From Chryseobacterium phocaeense (lineage in GTDB: Bacteria; Bacteroidota; Bacteroidia; Flavobacteriales; Weeksellaceae): 64,000 nt of DNA. The notes beneath the pieces are model-generated. The model was given only the letters and a program-made list of their open reading frames with translations, had not been told where the DNA came from and searched no databases. Below, piece after piece: positions 19,812 through 27,767 of the stretch (the stretch's first letter is position 1; every line of letters begins with the position of its first letter). Location: positions 3,178,158 through 3,242,157 of the forward strand of contig NZ_LT827015.1 of assembly GCF_900169075.1 (NCBI RefSeq), written 5' to 3'. Made by a program: the position numbers and the translations under genes.

Positions 19812-19982
19812 TTACACCATTGGTGGATAGCAGGTACCGCCAGGATTTCTCCAGCAGCCCCAAGCTCCGCCTCCACGGAAACATACATAGGCAGCTCCAC
19901 CACAAGTCTCGATCTGAAACTCTGTAAATCCGCCACTGATCTTGCTTTTTTCTTCTCTCGAAAGTCTTTTTAAATTTTTCAT
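19812..19982 (-). CDS. Bacteriocin-like peptide with GG-type leader, 56 aa
   Basis: This 56-codon frame starts MKNLKRLSREEKSKISGG. That is a double-glycine leader ending at residues 17-18, followed by a short Gly/Cys/aromatic-rich core with four Cys (27, 34, 43, 51). It matches the MKNLKKLSRE leader class seen in many Chryseobacterium bacteriocin-like peptides. The product could be processed and exported by a PCAT-type ABC transporter, but none is in this window. A second member lies 200 bp upstream on the same strand. Function is unknown; antimicrobial or signalling roles are only inferred from the leader. Confidence 0.75.
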   Translation of the reverse strand: MKNLKRLSREEKSKISGGFTEFQIETCGGAAYVCFRGGGAWGCWRNPGGTCYPPMV

Positions 19983-20186: not shown

Positions 20187-20384
20187 TTATTGAAGACATT
20201 CGGAACTCACAAAAACGCAGCTTTTGCATCGGCCAGGAAGTACATAGTAATCTTCACAAGAAAAATCATATCCTGCAGAAGTACCACCCGGACCATATCC
20301 ACCTTTAGGACATCCGTTACAGTTGGAAACAGCTCCGTTAATCATTCCTAAATCTTTTCGGGTCATTTTCTTTAAATTTTTCAT
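20187..20384 (-). CDS. Bacteriocin-like peptide, 65 aa, Cys-rich
   Basis: The 65-aa peptide starts MKNLKKMTRKDLGMINGA, a leader clearly related to that of the 56-aa peptide at 19812-19982, but with NGA where the other has SGG. The core is rich in Gly and has six Cys (SNCNGC, FSCEDYY, GRCKSC, SSEC), hinting at disulfides or other thiol modification. Each gene of the pair has its own terminator. No modification enzyme, transporter or immunity gene is recognisable nearby, so it may depend on a locus elsewhere. Confidence 0.75.
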   Translation of the reverse strand: MKNLKKMTRKDLGMINGAVSNCNGCPKGGYGPGGTSAGYDFSCEDYYVLPGRCKSCVFVSSECLQ

Positions 20385-20500: not shown

Positions 20501-20530
20501 TTTGTTGTTTCCAAATAATTTGTACATTTG
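20501..20530 (+). promoter_or_regulatory. Threonine operon promoter
   Basis: TTTG at 20501-20504, an 18-bp spacer and TACATTTG at 20523-20530 match the Bacteroidetes consensus. Transcription would begin about 20535, only a few nucleotides before the leader peptide ATG at 20542. Confidence 0.75.
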
Positions 20531-20541
20531 TCCTGTCAAGA

Positions 20542-20673
20542 ATGAACTTTCTAAGAAACATATCAGATATTTCTGCACCTGAATTACTTATTCCGGGCAT
20601 TTCTGCTGTTTCCATTTTCACGACTACAACTACAACTACAACTACAACTACAACTACAACTACTACCCCATAA
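20542..20673 (+). CDS. Threonine operon leader peptide, 43 aa
   Basis: This 43-codon ORF sits between the promoter and thrA. Codons 27-42 are 16 consecutive Thr codons (one ACG, then ACT/ACA alternating, last ACC), followed by Pro and TAA. Five Ile codons lie earlier (residues 7, 10, 17, 20, 25), which recalls the Thr/Ile composition of E. coli ThrL. Ribosome stalling in the Thr run when charged tRNA-Thr is scarce would alter folding of the downstream RNA. The stop codon lies in the loop of a small hairpin at 20664-20680. Confidence 0.8.
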   Translation: MNFLRNISDISAPELLIPGISAVSIFTTTTTTTTTTTTTTTTP

Positions 20674-20727
20674 CGGGGTATATTTTCACATATTATTTCC
20701 GTCCCGTGTACTCTTTTTTTAAAGAGT
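20664..20727 (+). promoter_or_regulatory. Attenuator-like alternative hairpins before thrA
   Basis: The GGGG at 20675-20678 can pair in two exclusive ways: with TACCCC (20664-20669) across the leader stop codon, or as ACGGGG (20673-20678) with TCCCGT (20702-20707), which is followed by a seven-T run at 20714-20720. A further hairpin ACTCTTT/AAAGAGT (20710-20727) uses the same T-run. Competition of this kind is the hallmark of leader-peptide attenuation. Which stem is the real terminator cannot be settled by eye. Confidence 0.55.
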
Positions 20728-20764
20728 AAAAATCTCATTTTTCCCAAATTCAAATAAATAACAG

Positions 20765-23215
20765 ATGAAAATCTTAAAATTCGGTGGCAGCTCTGTTGCC
20801 AACGCCCGGAATATCCTTCTGGCAGAACATATTCTTAAAAAAGAATCTTTACAGAGCAGAATTATTGTTGTAGTTTCAGCCCTTCACGGTGTAACAGACA
20901 ATCTGATCAGATCGGCTGAGTATGCTTCTTCTAAAGATGCGGCTTATATCCCGGTCATAAAAGGACTGGAAGAAAAACACCTGGAACTCGTCAAAGAACT
21001 TATCCCCATTTCAGCCCAGAGCTCCTGGCTAAGTTTCGTGAAAAAACATTTTAACGACATAGAAGATATCTACAACGGAATCTTTGTATTGGGTGAATTC
21101 ACAGACAAAATCAGAGACAGAATCACGTCATATGGCGAATTCCTTTCGTCCAATATCATCGCAGCCAGACTTCAGTATGAAGGCCTGGACTGCCTTTGGA
21201 TGAATTCCGCAGAGCAGATCAGGACAGACAGTAATTTTACCCATGCAAAAGTAGATTTTGAAGTTACTGAGAACAATATAAAGAATTTTGCAGCCAAGAA
21301 TCCAAACCAGATCATTATAGCACCCGGTTTTATTGCGAAAGACCAGAACGGAAATGCCACCACATTAGGAAGAGGCGGCTCGGATTATACGGCTGCTATT
21401 ATCGCCGCTGCTCTTTCTGCCGGAGAACTCCAAATCTGGACAGATGTCAGCGGTATGATGACTGCTGATCCGAGACTTGCTTCCCATGCAAAACCTATCC
21501 CGGAAATTTCTTACCATGAAGCGATGGAACTGTCCCATTTTGGGGCAAAAGTATTGTATCCGCCATCCATACAGCCTGTTATGGCAAAAAACATAGACTT
21601 GAAAATCAAAAACACTTTTGATCCTGATGCTCCTGGAACTCTGGTTTCTCACCACTTAAAAAAATCCATGGATGAAAACCGGGAAGCTGCGGTTGGAGTT
21701 TCCAATATGAGCCAAATTGCTCTTCTTACTCTGGAAGGCAGCGGCATGGTAGGAATTCCCGGAACTTCCGCCAGGCTTTTTCAGTGTCTCAGCAATGAAA
21801 AAATAAATGTTATCCTCATTACCCAGGGATCTTCTGAGCATTCCATTACTGTAGCCGTTGATGAAAAAGAGGTGTACCATGCGGAACAAGCGGTCAATTC
21901 TTCATTTGCAGATGATATCAAACTTCAGAGAACTGCTCCGGTAAAAATAGAAACCGGGCTTTCAATTGTCGCACTGGTAGGAGAAAATATGAAAAACAGA
22001 AGTGGGATCAGTTCGAAGATGTTCGGATGCCTGGGAAATAATGGCATTAATATCAGAGCCATTGCGCAGGGATCATCTGAAAGGAATATCAGCATTGTAA
22101 TTTCAGAAAAGGATACAAAAAAAGCGGTCAATGTTCTTCATGAAGAATTCTTTGAATCTGAAATCAAGCAGGTGCATCTTTATCTGTGCGGAACCGGAAA
22201 TGTAGGTTCAAAGCTGGTAGAGCAGATTTTTGAGCAGAATGCCTACCTTCGGGAAAACAACCTGATCAATTTAAGGATCGCAGGGCTTTCCAACAGCAGA
22301 AAAATGTTTTTTTCAGACCAGGGAATTTCTGAAAAAGATTATGACAGCTGGAGCGAAAAAGGGGTCCCGGCTTCCATTCATGGGTTTGCAGAGGAGATCA
22401 TTTCAAGAAATCTGAGGAATTCAATTTTCATTGATATCACTGCCAGTCAGGAAGTTCCGGAAATATATGAACGTCTGCTCAAAAGAAGCATCAATATTGT
22501 AGCCTGTAATAAAATTGCGGCTTCCTCAGATTTTGAAATTTATAAAACCTTAAAAAATACAGCCCGAAACCATAGCTGCCGTTTTTATTTTGAAACCAAT
22601 GTAGGCGCAGGACTTCCTGTAATCGGGACCATTAATGACCTTATCAAAAGCGGTGACAAAATCACTTCGATCCAGGCGGTATTAAGCGGAACCCTGAATT
22701 TTGTCTTCAATAATTATGACGGAAGCAGGCCGTTTTCAGAAGTCGTAGCTCAGGCGCAGAAAGAAGGTTTCACAGAACCGGATCCCCGCCTGGATCTTAC
22801 CGGAACAGATGTAGCGCGCAAGATCCTGATTTTAGCAAGGGAAGCCGGTTATCCGCTTCAGTTCGGGGATATTGAGAATCAAGGTTTCCTGCCTGAAGAA
22901 TGCCTCCAGGGAAGCGTGGAGGATTTCTATCAAAAGCTGGGCGAGTATGAAGATCACTTTAAAAAGCTGGTGGATGATGCGCAAAAAAACGGGAAGATTT
23001 TAAAATATACCGCCGAATTTAAAGATGGAAAAGCAAAAGTAGGCCTTCAGCATGTAGCACCGGACAGCGACCTGTTTCATCTGTATGGCAAAGACAATAT
23101 CGTTATTTTCAAAACCTTGAGATACTCTGAGCAGCCTCTTGTCGTAAAAGGAGCCGGTGCCGGCGCTGAAGTGACCGCCAGCGGTGTTTTTGCAGATATT
23201 ATCCGATCCGTTTAA
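20765..23215 (+). CDS. thrA: Bifunctional aspartokinase / homoserine dehydrogenase I
   Basis: The protein is 816 aa, the usual ThrA fusion length. The N-terminal aspartokinase has KFGGSSVANARN at residues 4-15 and FIAKDQNGNATTLGRGGSDYTAA. Two ACT regulatory segments follow in the middle (GVSNMSQIALLTLEGSGMVGIPG and GLSIVALVGENMKNRSGIS). The C-terminal homoserine dehydrogenase begins at the CGTGNVGSKLVEQ Rossmann motif and includes GAGLPVIGTINDL and GTLNFVFNNY. It catalyses the first and third steps of threonine synthesis and is normally feedback-inhibited by Thr. It is the first structural gene after the Thr-rich leader. Confidence 0.96.
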   Translation: MKILKFGGSSVANARNILLAEHILKKESLQSRIIVVVSALHGVTDNLIRSAEYASSKDAAYIPVIKGLEEKHLELVKELIPISAQSSWLSFVKKHFNDIEDIYNGIFVLGEFTDKIRDRITSYGEFLSSNIIAARLQYEGLDCLWMNSAEQIRTDSNFTHAKVDFEVTENNIKNFAAKNPNQIIIAPGFIAKDQNGNATTLGRGGSDYTAAIIAAALSAGELQIWTDVSGMMTADPRLASHAKPIPEISYHEAMELSHFGAKVLYPPSIQPVMAKNIDLKIKNTFDPDAPGTLVSHHLKKSMDENREAAVGVSNMSQIALLTLEGSGMVGIPGTSARLFQCLSNEKINVILITQGSSEHSITVAVDEKEVYHAEQAVNSSFADDIKLQRTAPVKIETGLSIVALVGENMKNRSGISSKMFGCLGNNGINIRAIAQGSSERNISIVISEKDTKKAVNVLHEEFFESEIKQVHLYLCGTGNVGSKLVEQIFEQNAYLRENNLINLRIAGLSNSRKMFFSDQGISEKDYDSWSEKGVPASIHGFAEEIISRNLRNSIFIDITASQEVPEIYERLLKRSINIVACNKIAASSDFEIYKTLKNTARNHSCRFYFETNVGAGLPVIGTINDLIKSGDKITSIQAVLSGTLNFVFNNYDGSRPFSEVVAQAQKEGFTEPDPRLDLTGTDVARKILILAREAGYPLQFGDIENQGFLPEECLQGSVEDFYQKLGEYEDHFKKLVDDAQKNGKILKYTAEFKDGKAKVGLQHVAPDSDLFHLYGKDNIVIFKTLRYSEQPLVVKGAGAGAEVTASGVFADIIRSV

Positions 23216-23226
23216 ATTAAAAAAAT

Positions 23227-24156
23227 ATGAAAAAAATAAAAATAAAAGTTCCGGCCACCGTTGCCAATATGGTCTGCGGATTTGATATCCTCGGAATGGC
23301 CATCCATGAACCTTATGACGAAATGGAACTGAAATTACTGGACAGTCCGGAGATTATCATTAAACATGAAGACCGGTTCGGGCTTCCGGAAGATCCGTCA
23401 AACAATGTAGCAGGTGTTGTCCTTCAACATATTCAGCAGCATTTGAAACTGGCTACGGGTTTTGAAGTAACGATCCGTAAACATATCAAGCCGGGAAGCG
23501 GGCTCGGCTCCAGTGCGGCAAGTGCCGCCGGAGCTGCTTTCGGGGCCAATGCATTACTGGGAAACATTTTATCCAAAGAGGAAATGGTTCATTTTGCGAT
23601 GTTCGGGGAGGAACTTGCTTCCGGGGTACGGCATGCAGATAATATTGCACCTTGTATTTATGGCGGAATTACCCTTGTAAAGTCCTCATCTCCTATTGAT
23701 ATTATTCCGCTGAGCACTCCGGATTTATTTGTGGCTGCCGTGCATCCGCAGGTAGAAGTCAAAACTTCAGATGCCCGACAGATCCTAAAGAAAAATATCC
23801 TGTTGAAAGACGCCATTGAACAGTGGGGAAATATTGCAGGATTAGTCACAGGAATTCTTAAAAATGATATTCCGCTGATCGGGAGAAGCCTTAATGATGT
23901 CATCATAGAACCGGTAAGAAGCATTCTGATTCCAAAATTTGAAGAAATCAAAGCTAAAAGTCTTAAGATGGGTGCGCTTGGAGGAGGAATTTCCGGCTCG
24001 GGGCCTTCCATTTTTATGCTGACTGAAAGAAAACAAGCCGCTCAGGATATTGCCCGCATGATGAAATCAGTATATGATGACATTGAGGTTGAAAGTCTTA
24101 TCTATGTATCAAAAATAAATCCTGTAGGAATCGAAATCGTAGAAAAAGAATATTAA
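23227..24156 (+). CDS. thrB: Homoserine kinase
   Basis: The protein is 309 aa and a GHMP-kinase family member. It has the N-terminal substrate loop IKVPATVANMVCGFDILGMA, the phosphate-binding motif PGSGLGSSAASAAGA, and the C-terminal GGGISGSGPSIFML. The enzyme phosphorylates homoserine for threonine synthase. It begins 11 nt after thrA and is followed 17 nt later by thrC, so the three are one transcription unit. Confidence 0.96.
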   Translation: MKKIKIKVPATVANMVCGFDILGMAIHEPYDEMELKLLDSPEIIIKHEDRFGLPEDPSNNVAGVVLQHIQQHLKLATGFEVTIRKHIKPGSGLGSSAASAAGAAFGANALLGNILSKEEMVHFAMFGEELASGVRHADNIAPCIYGGITLVKSSSPIDIIPLSTPDLFVAAVHPQVEVKTSDARQILKKNILLKDAIEQWGNIAGLVTGILKNDIPLIGRSLNDVIIEPVRSILIPKFEEIKAKSLKMGALGGGISGSGPSIFMLTERKQAAQDIARMMKSVYDDIEVESLIYVSKINPVGIEIVEKEY

Positions 24157-24173: not shown

Positions 24174-25487
24174 ATGAATTATTATAATTTAAAAGATAAA
24201 GAAGAGGTTGTTGATTTCAAAACGGCCTCTATAAAAAGCCAGGGGAACCACAAAGGGTTATTTTTTCCTGAATATATTCCCAAGTTTGATGATGATTTTA
24301 TTCAAAACCTTCATTTATATTCTGACCAAGAAATCGCTTTCAGGTGTATGAAAGACTTTGCAGGCGATGAAATTCCTGAAGAAATTTTAAGGAAAATTGC
24401 TGCGGAAACCATCAGTTTTGAGATCCCTTTAAAAAAAATCAATGAAAATATTGCTGTGCTGGAGCTTTTTCACGGGCCTACTTTAGCATTTAAAGATGTG
24501 GGGGCAAGGTTTATGAGCCTCTGCCTTTCGTACTTTTTAAAAGATGAAAACAAAAAAGTAACGGTTCTTGTGGCCACTTCCGGGGATACGGGAGGAGCCG
24601 TTGCCCATGGATTTTATAATATTCCGGGCATTAACGTGGTGATTCTTTATCCTAAAAACAGAGTAAGTCCGGTTCAGGAAAAACAGCTTACGGCACTGGG
24701 TGGAAATATTTCTTCACTGGAAGTCAATGGCAGTTTTGATGATTGTCAGCGTCTTGTCAAGCAGGCCTTCGCAGATAAAAGTATTAACTCCGAATTGTTT
24801 CTCACTTCAGCCAACTCTATCAATATTGCGAGATGGCTTCCGCAGCAGATCTATTATTTATTGGCTTTAAAACATTGGCAACAGCATGAAAACACAAATC
24901 CTGTCATCTGCGTCCCGAGTGGAAATTTCGGAAATATCTGTGCGGGACTTCTGGCTCATTTCCGGGGGCTTCCCGCAGAGCATTTCATCGCAGCCTGCAA
25001 TGAGAATGATGTTGTTCCGGATTATCTGAAAACCCGGCAGTATCATCCTAAGAAAGCCTTATCCACACTTTCAAATGCTATGGACGTGGGAGATCCCAGC
25101 AATTTCACAAGAATTCTGGAACTTTTCGGGCAGCAGTTTGAGCAGCTGAAAGATATGATTTCGGGGTATTCCATTAACGATGAACTCACCTTACAGACCA
25201 TACAGGAGGTTCATAAAAAATACGGATACCTTCTGGAACCCCACGGTGCCGTAGCATATGCATCTCTGGAACAATACTTGATTGAACATCCGGGCAAAAA
25301 AGGCCTGATCCTCGGAACTGCACATCCGGTGAAATTCCCTGATGCTGTGGAGAAAGCAACAAATATTAAAGTGGAGATTCCTTCCGGATTAAAAGATCTG
25401 ATGAATACAGAGAAAAAAACTATAGAAATACATGCAGATTTTGAAGAATTAAAGCGATTTTTGCTGAATAAAAATCAGGAACAATGA
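24174..25487 (+). CDS. thrC: Threonine synthase
   Basis: The protein is 437 aa and PLP-dependent. The lysine-bearing motif is in LFHGPTLAFKDVGARFM, followed by VLVATSGDTGGAVAHGF and VICVPSGNFGNICAGLLA. It converts O-phosphohomoserine to threonine and phosphate. Its stop overlaps the start of folB by four bases (ATGA), implying translational coupling. Confidence 0.96.
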   Translation: MNYYNLKDKEEVVDFKTASIKSQGNHKGLFFPEYIPKFDDDFIQNLHLYSDQEIAFRCMKDFAGDEIPEEILRKIAAETISFEIPLKKINENIAVLELFHGPTLAFKDVGARFMSLCLSYFLKDENKKVTVLVATSGDTGGAVAHGFYNIPGINVVILYPKNRVSPVQEKQLTALGGNISSLEVNGSFDDCQRLVKQAFADKSINSELFLTSANSINIARWLPQQIYYLLALKHWQQHENTNPVICVPSGNFGNICAGLLAHFRGLPAEHFIAACNENDVVPDYLKTRQYHPKKALSTLSNAMDVGDPSNFTRILELFGQQFEQLKDMISGYSINDELTLQTIQEVHKKYGYLLEPHGAVAYASLEQYLIEHPGKKGLILGTAHPVKFPDAVEKATNIKVEIPSGLKDLMNTEKKTIEIHADFEELKRFLLNKNQEQ

Positions 25488-25855
25488 GTAAGATCTTTCT
25501 TGAAGAGGTAAAAATATATGCTTATCACGGCGTTCTTCCCGAAGAAAATATCATCGGGACTTACTATATTTTAAATGCAGAACTGCACACCGATCTCTGG
25601 AAAGCTGCAGAAACAGATGATCTGAATGACACGATCAGCTATGCAGATATTAATGCTATCCTGCATAAGGAAATGTCCATTAAATCCAAATTGCTGGAAC
25701 ACGTGGCAGGGAGAATGATCACCGGAATTCATCGCGCTTTTCCACAGATTTCGTACATTAAACTGAAGATTACGAAGACTTCCCCACCGATGCAAGGTGA
25801 AATGAAGGGCGCAAGTATTGAACTGGAAAAAAGCTTCAAACCTGATGAGCATTAA
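25484..25855 (+). CDS. folB: Dihydroneopterin aldolase
   Basis: The protein is 123 aa, the normal length of this octameric enzyme. The family marks VKIYAYHGVLPEENIIGTYY, DLNDTISYADI, KLLEHVAGRM and IKLKITKTSPPMQGEMKGASIEL include the conserved Tyr, Glu and Lys of the active site. It acts in folate synthesis, releasing glycolaldehyde from dihydroneopterin. Overlap with thrC by four bases places it in the threonine operon, so it would be read under the leader control. Confidence 0.93.
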   Translation: MSKIFLEEVKIYAYHGVLPEENIIGTYYILNAELHTDLWKAAETDDLNDTISYADINAILHKEMSIKSKLLEHVAGRMITGIHRAFPQISYIKLKITKTSPPMQGEMKGASIELEKSFKPDEH

Positions 25856-25885: not shown

Positions 25886-27250
25886 TTGAAATCCATCAAA
25901 TTATTTTTTTTATTGAGTTGTGCCATGGTTTTTGGCCAGACTGCGGTTGATACCCCATCCCCTGTTTACAATTTTCCAAAGATAAAATCCAGCATCACGA
26001 TGCCTGTAACCATCCCGCTTTCAGAGATCAGCAATATGATCAATGCATCGGTAAAGGAGCTGGTATATCAGGATGATTCTTATACGGATAATAATAATGA
26101 CCAGTTTAAAGTGAAGGTATGGAAAACCCGCCCTATCCGTCTGGTAGGCGGAACCACCCAGAATCTCCTGATTGAGGTTCCTTTAAAAATATGGGCTGAG
26201 AAAGGAATCGGTACCCTTGGGGTATATTCCTATCAGAACACTACCTTTGAAACGGTCATGTCTTTTAACACAACACTAAGTTTTAAAAATAACTGGACCA
26301 TCGTTACTACCACACAGCCCAATGGTTTCAGATGGGTTACGAAACCGGTTCTGGATTACGGAAGAATACAGATTCCTATTACCTCCCTCGTAGAAAAAAG
26401 TCTTAGGGAACAGCAGGAAAAATTTGCTAAAACCATTGACCAGCAAATGGCTACCCAGCTGAATTTTCAGAAGTATGCGGTCATGGCGTGGAATGTTTTT
26501 TCACAACCTTTTAATATTTCGGAGGAATACAACACGTGGCTTAAAATCAGCCCGGTGGGTGTGAACATCACTCCTTTGAAATTCTACGGAAATGAAATCA
26601 CTACGAATATCGGAATGGATATTTATTCGGAAACCTTTACGGGGAGCAAACCGGCGGCCTCAGCCACAGTAAAATCCGTCAATAATTTCGCAGTGGTTCC
26701 GGTACTGGCGGATAAATTCCTTCTGCAGACCACTGCCAATGTTCCTTTTTCCGAAGCAACGAATATTGCCAGGAATATGTTTATGAATAAGGAATACGAT
26801 GTCCGCGGCTCTAAAGTAAAGATCAAAGACATCCGGGTATACGGAGCAGACGACAGGGTGATCATCGAAGCGGAAACGGAAGGCTATGTGAATGGAAAAG
26901 CCATTATTTCAGGAATTCCGGTGTATGACGAGACAAAAAAGAAAATTGTTCTGTCTGCCACTAAATTCAATTTAAAGACAGCCAATATCCTCCAGAAAAC
27001 TGCTACCCTTATTTTTAAAGGAAAAATTGTAAAAATGATCGAAGAGGAATACGGAATTCCGACTCAGGACCTGGAGCTGGCCTCGAAGAAAAGCATAGAG
27101 GAAGCTTTCAACAAAGAATATTACAAAGGCTTAAAAATGAACGGAAGAGTTTTCAACCTGAAGCCTGGCAGCGTTCTTCTCAACGAATATGGCATCACAG
27201 CAGTAATAGAAACCAACGCAACTTTAAAATTAACGCTTAACGGAATTTAA
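25886..27250 (+). CDS. DUF4403 family exported protein
   Basis: The protein is 454 aa from a TTG start at 25886; a later ATG would cut the signal peptide (KLFFLLSCAMVFG, ending about residue 18). It shows the DUF4403 layout: SSITMPVTIPLSEISNMINASV near the N-terminus, LIEVPLKIWAEKGIGTLGVYS, and repeated beta-rich halves with strands such as KVKIKDIRVYGADDRVIIEAETEGYVNGKA, reminiscent of SMP/BPI lipid-binding folds. It is probably a periplasmic or envelope lipid-associated protein, but this is inference. It follows folB by 30 nt and precedes an RDD-family gene. Confidence 0.8.
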   Translation: MKSIKLFFLLSCAMVFGQTAVDTPSPVYNFPKIKSSITMPVTIPLSEISNMINASVKELVYQDDSYTDNNNDQFKVKVWKTRPIRLVGGTTQNLLIEVPLKIWAEKGIGTLGVYSYQNTTFETVMSFNTTLSFKNNWTIVTTTQPNGFRWVTKPVLDYGRIQIPITSLVEKSLREQQEKFAKTIDQQMATQLNFQKYAVMAWNVFSQPFNISEEYNTWLKISPVGVNITPLKFYGNEITTNIGMDIYSETFTGSKPAASATVKSVNNFAVVPVLADKFLLQTTANVPFSEATNIARNMFMNKEYDVRGSKVKIKDIRVYGADDRVIIEAETEGYVNGKAIISGIPVYDETKKKIVLSATKFNLKTANILQKTATLIFKGKIVKMIEEEYGIPTQDLELASKKSIEEAFNKEYYKGLKMNGRVFNLKPGSVLLNEYGITAVIETNATLKLTLNGI

Positions 27251-27278: not shown

Positions 27279-27767
27279 ATGAGACCGTATTTACAGATCG
27301 TCGACAGACATCGAGCTTCAAAAGGAACGAGGCTGGCAAATTATTTAATTGACCTTGTGGCCTTTTACATCGTATTTTTTATGATCCTTACTTTGCTTAT
27401 GATCATCAGTCCCGCTTACAGAGGCTGGGTTGCCAATAGCAGCGATATCACGCAAAGGCTGATGGGAATCACTTCTTACCTTTTATTTTGCTTTTTTATG
27501 GAAACCGTAACGGGTGGAAGAAGCCTTGGAAAACTGATCACTGGTACCAGAGTCATTATGACAGACGGGCAGAAACCTTCTGCGGGAAACTATTTTTTAA
27601 GAAATATTATCAGGGGAGTAATTCTGATTGATCAATTGTCTTTTCTGAGTGAAAACGGATTCCATGACAGCTGGAGCAATACCTGTGTTATAAAGATAAA
27701 AGATTATGAAGCTGAAAGACAGCTAAAAAGCGATATCAACAGCATCGGAACTAAAGAAATTGTATAA
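27279..27767 (+). CDS. RDD family membrane protein
   Basis: The protein is 162 aa. The RDD signature is seen near the N-terminus (RLANYLIDLVAFYIVFFMI, with Arg and Asp of the motif), followed by two more membrane helices, then GRSLGKLITGTRVI and FLRNIIRGVILIDQLSF in the conserved C-terminal helix region. Function is unknown; some RDD proteins are Na+/H+ antiporters. It is the last gene of the thr-folB-DUF4403 run. Confidence 0.85.
   Translation: MRPYLQIVDRHRASKGTRLANYLIDLVAFYIVFFMILTLLMIISPAYRGWVANSSDITQRLMGITSYLLFCFFMETVTGGRSLGKLITGTRVIMTDGQKPSAGNYFLRNIIRGVILIDQLSFLSENGFHDSWSNTCVIKIKDYEAERQLKSDINSIGTKEIV

Follow-up and report, generated by a model that had tools for sequence, protein, structure and literature searches.

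The leader thrL of the Escherichia coli thr operon is a classical example of ribosome-mediated attenuation, and its regulatory codons are a mixture of Thr and Ile, Thr being the biosynthetic precursor of Ile. Leader peptides such as tnaC and mgtL belong to the Rho-dependent attenuators, and the Bacteroid-trp RNA is found upstream of trp genes. The E. coli thr leader is described as having eight ACC codons (PMC1183508), and the Bacteroid-trp RNA motif (RF01692) is listed as a cis-regulatory candidate of Bacteroidetes (Table 1 of PMC2864571). In Flavobacterium psychrophilum, amino-acid operons have been reported to show strong clues of control by leader-peptide attenuation, the elements named including those at pheA and hisG (PMC9723704), and leader-peptide-like ORFs are mentioned for Bacteroides (PMC7366714); leader-peptide attenuation in flavobacteria is therefore not new as an idea (PMC9723704). 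In more distant bacteria, mycobacterial cys operon leaders have been described with Cys codons near the stop and no conserved terminator, for which the authors suggest Rho (PMC1262725), and in the Salmonella mgtCBR leader a Pro-codon ORF, mgtP, has been reported to raise downstream transcription under shortage of the cognate tRNA (PMC3641672). Among the matches listed from the open-licence literature, none concerned a thr leader in Bacteroidetes.

We analyzed the region upstream of thrA in Chryseobacterium phocaeense within a stretch of 64,000 nucleotides, hereafter the window (Table 1). The leader ORF product was MNFLRNISDISAPELLIPGISAVSIF(T16)P*, in which the Thr run is followed by a Pro codon (20668-20670) and the TAA stop (20671-20673). 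Translation and folding confirmed the preliminary description of a 43-codon ORF before thrA with codons 27-42 all Thr and its Pro-stop in a hairpin. The promoter that it had placed ahead of the leader was also recovered, as the TACATTTG box at 20523-20530, which we take to be of the Bacteroidetes -7-type promoter consensus. The TANATTTG box was present in all 97 Chryseobacterium leaders (97/97), with the first ATG 10-11 nt downstream in 85 of them.

Table 1. Features of the thr leader and operon in the C. phocaeense window
Feature	Position	Strand	Basis
Promoter box TACATTTG, -7-type	20523..20530	+	Sequence; 11 nt before leader ATG
Leader peptide ORF, 43 codons + TAA	20542..20673	+	Translation; frame kept in 95/97 relatives
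Thr run, 16 consecutive Thr codons (codons 27-42)	20620..20667	+	Translation
Hairpin 1, TACCCC-ATAAC-GGGGTA	20664..20680	+	Predicted fold; window and 166 relatives; stop TAA 20671-20673 in loop
Linker motif ATTTTCACATAT	20682..20693	+	Conservation in genus; short form in other families
Hairpin 3, TACTCTTT-TTTT-AAAGAGTA; T run in 5' arm and loop	20709..20728	+	Predicted fold
thrA, aspartokinase/homoserine dehydrogenase	20765..23215	+	Pfam
thrB, GHMP kinase (homoserine kinase by position)	23227..24156	+	Pfam
thrC, threonine synthase	24174..25487	+	Pfam
folB, dihydroneopterin aldolase	25484..25855	+	Pfam
DUF4403 protein	25886..27250	+	Pfam
RDD family membrane protein	27279..27767	+	Pfam

The six genes behind the leader, including folB, DUF4403, and RDD as initially reported, were verified by Pfam, and the latter three were the same behind thrC in 5/5 other Chryseobacterium loci checked. 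The order thrA-thrB-thrC was found in 10/10 loci from ten genomes. In another genus of the family (L362), folB was the only one of folB, DUF4403, and RDD behind thrABC, and none of the three was found in the ~8 kb taken from three genomes of family f3 and one of another family (the group labels f1 and f3 used here were inferred to be Weeksellaceae and Flavobacteriaceae, respectively). Because all three genes followed thrABC in the Chryseobacterium loci and not in the others checked, shared control with threonine biosynthesis would be a genus-level possibility. The window also encodes two small minus-strand proteins at 19812-19982 and 20187-20384, which start with MKNLKKLSREEKSKISGG and MKNLKKMTRKDLGMINGA, respectively, and presumably resemble bacteriocin precursors in having a leader and a Gly motif.

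The nearest named relatives, in a comparison that may not include records of the window's own genome, were Chryseobacterium species, such as C. endalhagicum, whose thrA shows 91% identity and whose leader (L004) has seven Thr after a Met. The longest Thr run had 16 codons in the window, as counted in one assembly, versus 1-8 in 97 other Chryseobacterium thrA upstream regions, and most of it is made up of 6.8 perfect tandem copies of ACTACA (20623-20663). These results indicate that the long uninterrupted run first noted is real, but that its length is an outlier produced by local hexamer expansion of a conserved feature. Over the ten codons that precede the hairpin, Thr made up 48% in Chryseobacterium, 38% for f3, and 51% for the Chitinophagaceae set (L292-L310, including some Bacteroidetes bins), as against 5%, 9%, and 7%, respectively, in codons 15-32 upstream. 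In addition, the length from the conserved ORF stretch to hairpin 1 was a multiple of 3 in 95/97 Chryseobacterium leaders despite taking several values, whereas the distance from hairpin 1 to thrA fell into all three length classes (40, 35, and 22 of the 97 leaders), and this difference between the ORF side and the non-coding side supports translation of the leader. Judged by frame (95/97) and Thr enrichment, the locus appears to have the short translated ORF with operon-cognate codons that defines the sensing part of a thrL-type attenuator. The thrL-like sensing logic proposed in the preliminary description, with a translated Thr-codon leader, is thus conserved in relatives, Thr-rich ends being present in 97/98 Chryseobacterium regions.

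Ile was more frequent in the last ten codons than upstream in other f1 genera (29% vs 12%) and in f3 (17% vs 11%), but not in Chryseobacterium (7% vs 15%) or the Chitinophagaceae set (13% vs 16%). Since Ile is made from Thr, leaders that combine the two are similar to thrL in their regulatory codons. In one locus (L328), a leader ORF ~160 nt upstream of the thrA homologue contained several Met codons besides Thr (..TVMFMCTMTLRG*), and this leader possibly senses both homoserine products. The leader ORFs of L292-L300 and L302-L310 may start with GTG, and most of these leaders share a stretch around TGGGC after CATAT, for which we saw no explaining pairing.

The stem of hairpin 1 has 6 bp (20664-20669/20675-20680). 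Among 250 distinct thrA upstream regions, such a stop-codon hairpin was identified at 167 of 180 Thr-rich ORF ends versus 36 of 968 random control stops in the same regions, counting perfect Watson-Crick stems and requiring that 4 or more of the final 13 codons be Thr. The stop codon lay no more than 2 nt from the hairpin centre in 133 of the 167 leaders and 7-10 nt to its 3' side in the other 34. All 97 Chryseobacterium regions with a Thr-rich ORF end, from 98 distinct regions, had the hairpin. It was also found in 7/21 regions of other f1 genera (probably Weeksellaceae), 35/69 of f3 (probably Flavobacteriaceae, one genome per genus), 6/17 of the mixed order-level f3 genomes and small-genome family f16, 16/18 of the Chitinophagaceae set, 1/2 of family f2, 0/3 of family f15, and 5/22 of other class-level genomes. 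A looser leader search was positive in 55/81 f3-side regions. The 83/250 regions in which no stop hairpin was counted comprised 70 that failed the Thr filter and 13 more without a hairpin; reading 22 uncounted regions by eye, we found a hairpin at a short ORF end in 12, no leader in ~9, and a classical-looking leader in 1. The regions without a leader indicate that it is not universal where thrA occurs. Loci were excluded for lack of the start pattern (L133, L153), as paralogues (L002, L003), or because of too little upstream sequence (L301), and L101 was missed by one regular expression.

The stem of the stop-codon hairpin occurred in several variants, including ACCCC/GGGGT, AACCC/GGGTT, TCCGC/GCGGA, ATCCC/GGGAT, and ACGGG/CCCGT, and L317 and L321 had exchanged G and C arms (right arm C-rich) with the stop codon still in the loop. 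Preservation of the pairing rather than the sequence, at a fixed place relative to the stop codon, is strong evidence that the hairpin matters and that the ribosome is involved. This evidence was drawn from the wider families because hairpin 1 is nearly invariant within Chryseobacterium. Within the genus, column-pair covariation in 96 leaders (two were left out of the alignment as too gapped) gave one top pair at window positions 20578/20594, 94% paired, which is evidence for a small hairpin within the leader ORF; another top pair was 77% paired, and most others were not pairs. This small hairpin (20578-20594), whose closing pair alternates between T-A (46) and C-G (42), is possibly a polymerase pause hairpin. 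The leader of the window as a whole folded better than 200/200 dinucleotide shuffles (z -3.89), and the part from hairpin 1 onward better than 197/200 (z -3.17). At one locus (L116), the Thr-rich ORF and the left hairpin arm upstream of thrA have apparently been lost, and the GGGG arm remains together with the linker motif and the hairpins that follow.

Downstream of the hairpin, YATAT or CATA occurred within 22 nt in 158/167 leaders, including 97/97 in Chryseobacterium, 30/35 in f3, and 16/16 in the Chitinophagaceae set (shuffle expectations, 41.0, 15.4, and 8.9, respectively). A 28-nt pattern comprising the hairpin arms and linker was present as a single copy in each of 95/148 genus genomes, and a reversed control pattern in none; 50 of the 53 genomes without it had no close thrA, and three had one (G089, G099, and G102). 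On these sequence features, we define a group, the stop-codon-hairpin thr leader of Bacteroidia, by a Thr-rich ORF end upstream of thrA, a stop codon in or just 3' of a hairpin, and YATAT/CATA within 22 nt after it, and the window belongs to this group together with relatives. Measured against the 5% tail of shuffles, hairpin 3, located 36 nt before thrA in the window, was stronger in 93% of 30 Chryseobacterium leaders (of 97), 37% of 30 f3 leaders (of 35), and 6% of 16 Chitinophagaceae-set leaders. Its signal is therefore weaker in other Flavobacteriales and absent from the Chitinophagaceae set, and hairpin 3 falls outside the universal core.

The tail behind the leader ORF was rich in C. Its C/G ratio was 2.50 in Chryseobacterium leaders, 2.23 in those of f3, and 1.45 for the Chitinophagaceae set; as controls, 31 other 5' regions of the window gave 1.03, and ten classical-type thr leaders 0.77. 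YC dinucleotides reached 12.7 versus 6.0 per 100 nt in the control, alongside the C/G ratios of 2.50 versus 1.03. From its sequence, the region thus appears to provide the C-rich, G-poor, unstructured RNA behind the leader ORF that is characteristic of Rho-dependent leader-peptide attenuators, and a rho gene was found in 6/6 genomes checked. Base composition nevertheless speaks only weakly for Rho, and the Chitinophagaceae set shows less of a C excess.

Intrinsic terminators were searched for with a script requiring a stem-loop of at least 5 pairs, an energy of -6 kcal/mol or better, and an adjoining T tract, and by this script none was found in the thr leader of the window. Candidates behind hairpin 1 occurred in 4/40 Chryseobacterium leaders (40 of the 97) versus 2/40 shuffled sequences, and in 0/35 f3, 0/7 other f1, 0/6 f3/f16, 0/1 f2, 1/16 Chitinophagaceae-set, and 2/5 class-level leaders. 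In sum, 7/110 stop-hairpin leaders gave a weak candidate, those listed having -6.2 to -6.4 kcal/mol. As positive controls, the his and trp leaders of seven genomes, including that of the window, yielded a terminator in 14/14 cases (-12.6 to -21.3 kcal/mol) from stretches cut after the leader positions had been seen. Classical-type thr leaders of other Bacteroidia did so in 10/11 cases (not L322), these eleven having been picked by eye, with L127, L128, and L322 among them not clearly Thr-rich. A consensus scan called only hairpin 1 terminator-like in the window. We rejected hairpin 1 as a terminator, because the required T tract follows it in just 8/97 Chryseobacterium, 4/35 f3, and 2/16 Chitinophagaceae-set leaders, and because the regulatory sign would also be wrong; a T tract followed it in 3/7 other f1, 3/6 f3/f16, 1/1 f2, and 1/5 class-level leaders. 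Of two parts of a thrL-type attenuator, an intrinsic terminator was thus rarely found in the stop-hairpin leaders, and the pairing expected for a mutually exclusive, strand-sharing antiterminator stayed at chance level in all groups. A search of Rfam 15 at the curated gathering score, including Thr_leader and Bacteroid-trp, returned only a tRNA in the window and no match in 20 related loci.

Taken together, the sequence comparisons suggest, with a probability of roughly 0.65, that a threonine-sensing leader peptide (Thr and Ile in some lineages) controls thrABC through the position of the ribosome and is built unlike thrL. For the direction of regulation and its readout, we infer the following course. 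With ample charged tRNA-Thr, the ribosome would reach the stop codon, where its footprint would have to melt hairpin 1; with scarce tRNA-Thr, it would be parked in the Thr run, and hairpin 1 would form as RNA polymerase enters the linker. A ribosome has been reported to cover ~12 nt downstream of its codon (PMC4833913). A ribosome terminating at the leader stop would thus be expected to open hairpin 1, and one well back in the Thr run to leave it free. A closed hairpin 1 should mean expression, the operon being biosynthetic, and would let transcription continue into thrA, and a melted hairpin would lead to premature termination or loss of the message. However, hairpin 1 can re-form after release of the ribosome, and a lasting difference between the two states is not explained by the hairpin alone. 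The terminating step would not be a classical hairpin with a U tract. Given the C-rich tail and the lack of an intrinsic terminator, termination by Rho in this tail would be the first choice and the likeliest readout, followed by RNA decay or translation, and taken on its own we give the Rho step somewhat less than an even chance. As a tentative generalization, in which our confidence likewise stays below one half, these leaders may represent an attenuator class of Bacteroidia in which one hairpin around the leader's own stop codon replaces the antiterminator/terminator pair, ribosome and hairpin being mutually exclusive, so that the hairpin would report translation status directly to RNA polymerase or Rho.

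Other explanations of the leader were weighed against the same data. The preliminary description had proposed a classical attenuator, in which GGGG pairs with CCCC as an antiterminator or with a downstream CCCG strand as a terminator before a T run. The strands are present in the window, where an ACGGG/CCCGT pairing is possible (20673-20677/20703-20707) upstream of the T run at 20714-20720, and TACCC or TATCCC is kept downstream in 32/97 Chryseobacterium leaders. However, 30/97 leaders have no CCC there, and the duplex energies between the right arm of hairpin 1 and the downstream strand were no better than those of shuffles in any of the seven groups; the second pairing is at chance level and not conserved, and the switch from GGGG to a downstream CCC was rejected. 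Aligned across relatives, as had been proposed, the upstream region retains the Thr-rich end and hairpin 1, with a stem varying by lineage, but neither the long run nor the GGGG/CCC pairing. When the right arm of hairpin 1 was allowed into the search, 13/40 Chryseobacterium leaders yielded a terminator candidate, the window not among them, and part of the genus may therefore have a terminator of its own. The C-rich right arms of L317 and L321 also speak against a classical attenuator, which we consider quite improbable. A four-segment logic resembling that of trp, formed by the right arm of hairpin 1 and the 5' arm of hairpin 3, appeared in one fold of a piece of the window; it fails the duplex test and is also contradicted by the swapped arms of L317 and L321.

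Translation of the leader could instead act after transcription, which would run on, by determining whether thrA is translated or whether the message is cleaved or degraded in the linker that separates hairpin 1 from hairpin 3. The conserved unpaired linker between two hairpins in Chryseobacterium and the lack of a terminator are consistent with such control, and a leader ORF with contiguous Cys codons in Mycobacterium smegmatis is described in a review as regulating downstream translation (PMC9031893). Nevertheless, the predicted fold leaves the thrA start open, for which reason sequestration of this start was rejected, the ORF end lies ~85-105 nt from thrA in Chryseobacterium, far for reinitiation, and hairpin 3 has no signal in the Chitinophagaceae set, which makes post-transcriptional control unlikely. 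The near invariance of ATTTTCACATAT in Chryseobacterium, together with the persistence of its short form in other families, would also fit a translation-independent protein-binding or polymerase-pausing signal formed by hairpin 1 and the linker, with the Thr codons secondary; we regard this as very improbable, since it leaves the Thr codons, the conserved frame, and the fixed place of the stop codon unexplained. Finally, a functionless chance ORF arising from a hexamer microsatellite could account for a run of 16 that is mostly perfect repeat and exceeds the maximum of 8 in the 97 other Chryseobacterium regions. The ORF, its frame, the Thr-rich end, and the stop hairpin are conserved in relatives without the repeat, however, and the likelihood of this explanation is close to negligible.

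Compared with described systems, the leader resembles E. coli thrL in that a short ORF containing Thr (and Ile) codons precedes thrABC, and in the charged-tRNA sensing that it would perform, but differs in that the Chryseobacterium leader has no conserved antiterminator/terminator pair, has its stop codon in a local hairpin, and finds no Rfam match. The mycobacterial cys leaders are similar in their cognate codons near the stop, the lack of a conserved terminator, and the suggested role of Rho, whereas the parts of that report available to us describe no conserved hairpin able to terminate, weak Rho motifs, and do not mention a stop-codon hairpin (PMC1262725). The likeness to mgtP lies in the codon-rich leader ORF; the gene, stem-loops, and lineage described for it differ, and the two are not homologous (PMC3641672). 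The leader elements of F. psychrophilum embody the same idea of regulation in a flavobacterium, and the main text of that study is without thrA or threonine (PMC9723704). Like the Bacteroid-trp RNA, the thr leader is a cis-regulatory RNA candidate upstream of amino-acid genes in Bacteroidetes, but it is not matched by Rfam.

Classical leaders were also identified in the same genomes. In that of C. phocaeense, leader ORFs were found upstream of hisG with His codons (L339, ..LTLHHYYHHLC*), and upstream of the ilvD region (L346) and trpE (L353) with runs of Ile/Val (..LLTVIIIVIIIPLRL*), Leu, and Trp (..NNIWWWLSNSS..) codons; its his and trp leaders have classical terminators. His and trp leaders were seen in 7/7 genomes and ilv-type leaders in 5/7. 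Thr leaders with intrinsic terminators were observed in other Bacteroidia (L131, L156, L157, L319, L320, and L324), placing the same operon under two designs. These classical his, trp, ilv-type, and thr leaders share cognate codon runs near the end of a short ORF with the stop-hairpin leader, but have strong stem-loops and T tracts that the latter lacks.

These results indicate that the thr leader is real and conserved, that its stop-codon hairpin without a terminator is more interesting than first noted, and that the 16-codon run, a local repeat, is less so. Amino-acid attenuation in its textbook form depends on a terminator hairpin. In the thr leader, the half that senses is plain and its conservation extends beyond one order, but the half that terminates was not found. 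Either another step (Rho, pausing, or RNA decay) would read the position of the ribosome, or this would be a new kind of RNA switch, and the stop-hairpin thr leader is a candidate RNA family, for which Rfam 15 gave no match in the window or in 20 loci. If the proposed reading is true, genomes with a stop-hairpin attenuator would at the same time carry classical attenuators of his and trp, while other Bacteroidia use the classical design at thr. As thrA is preceded by a classical leader in some of these related bacteria and by a stop-hairpin leader in others, reporter assays could compare the two designs side by side.
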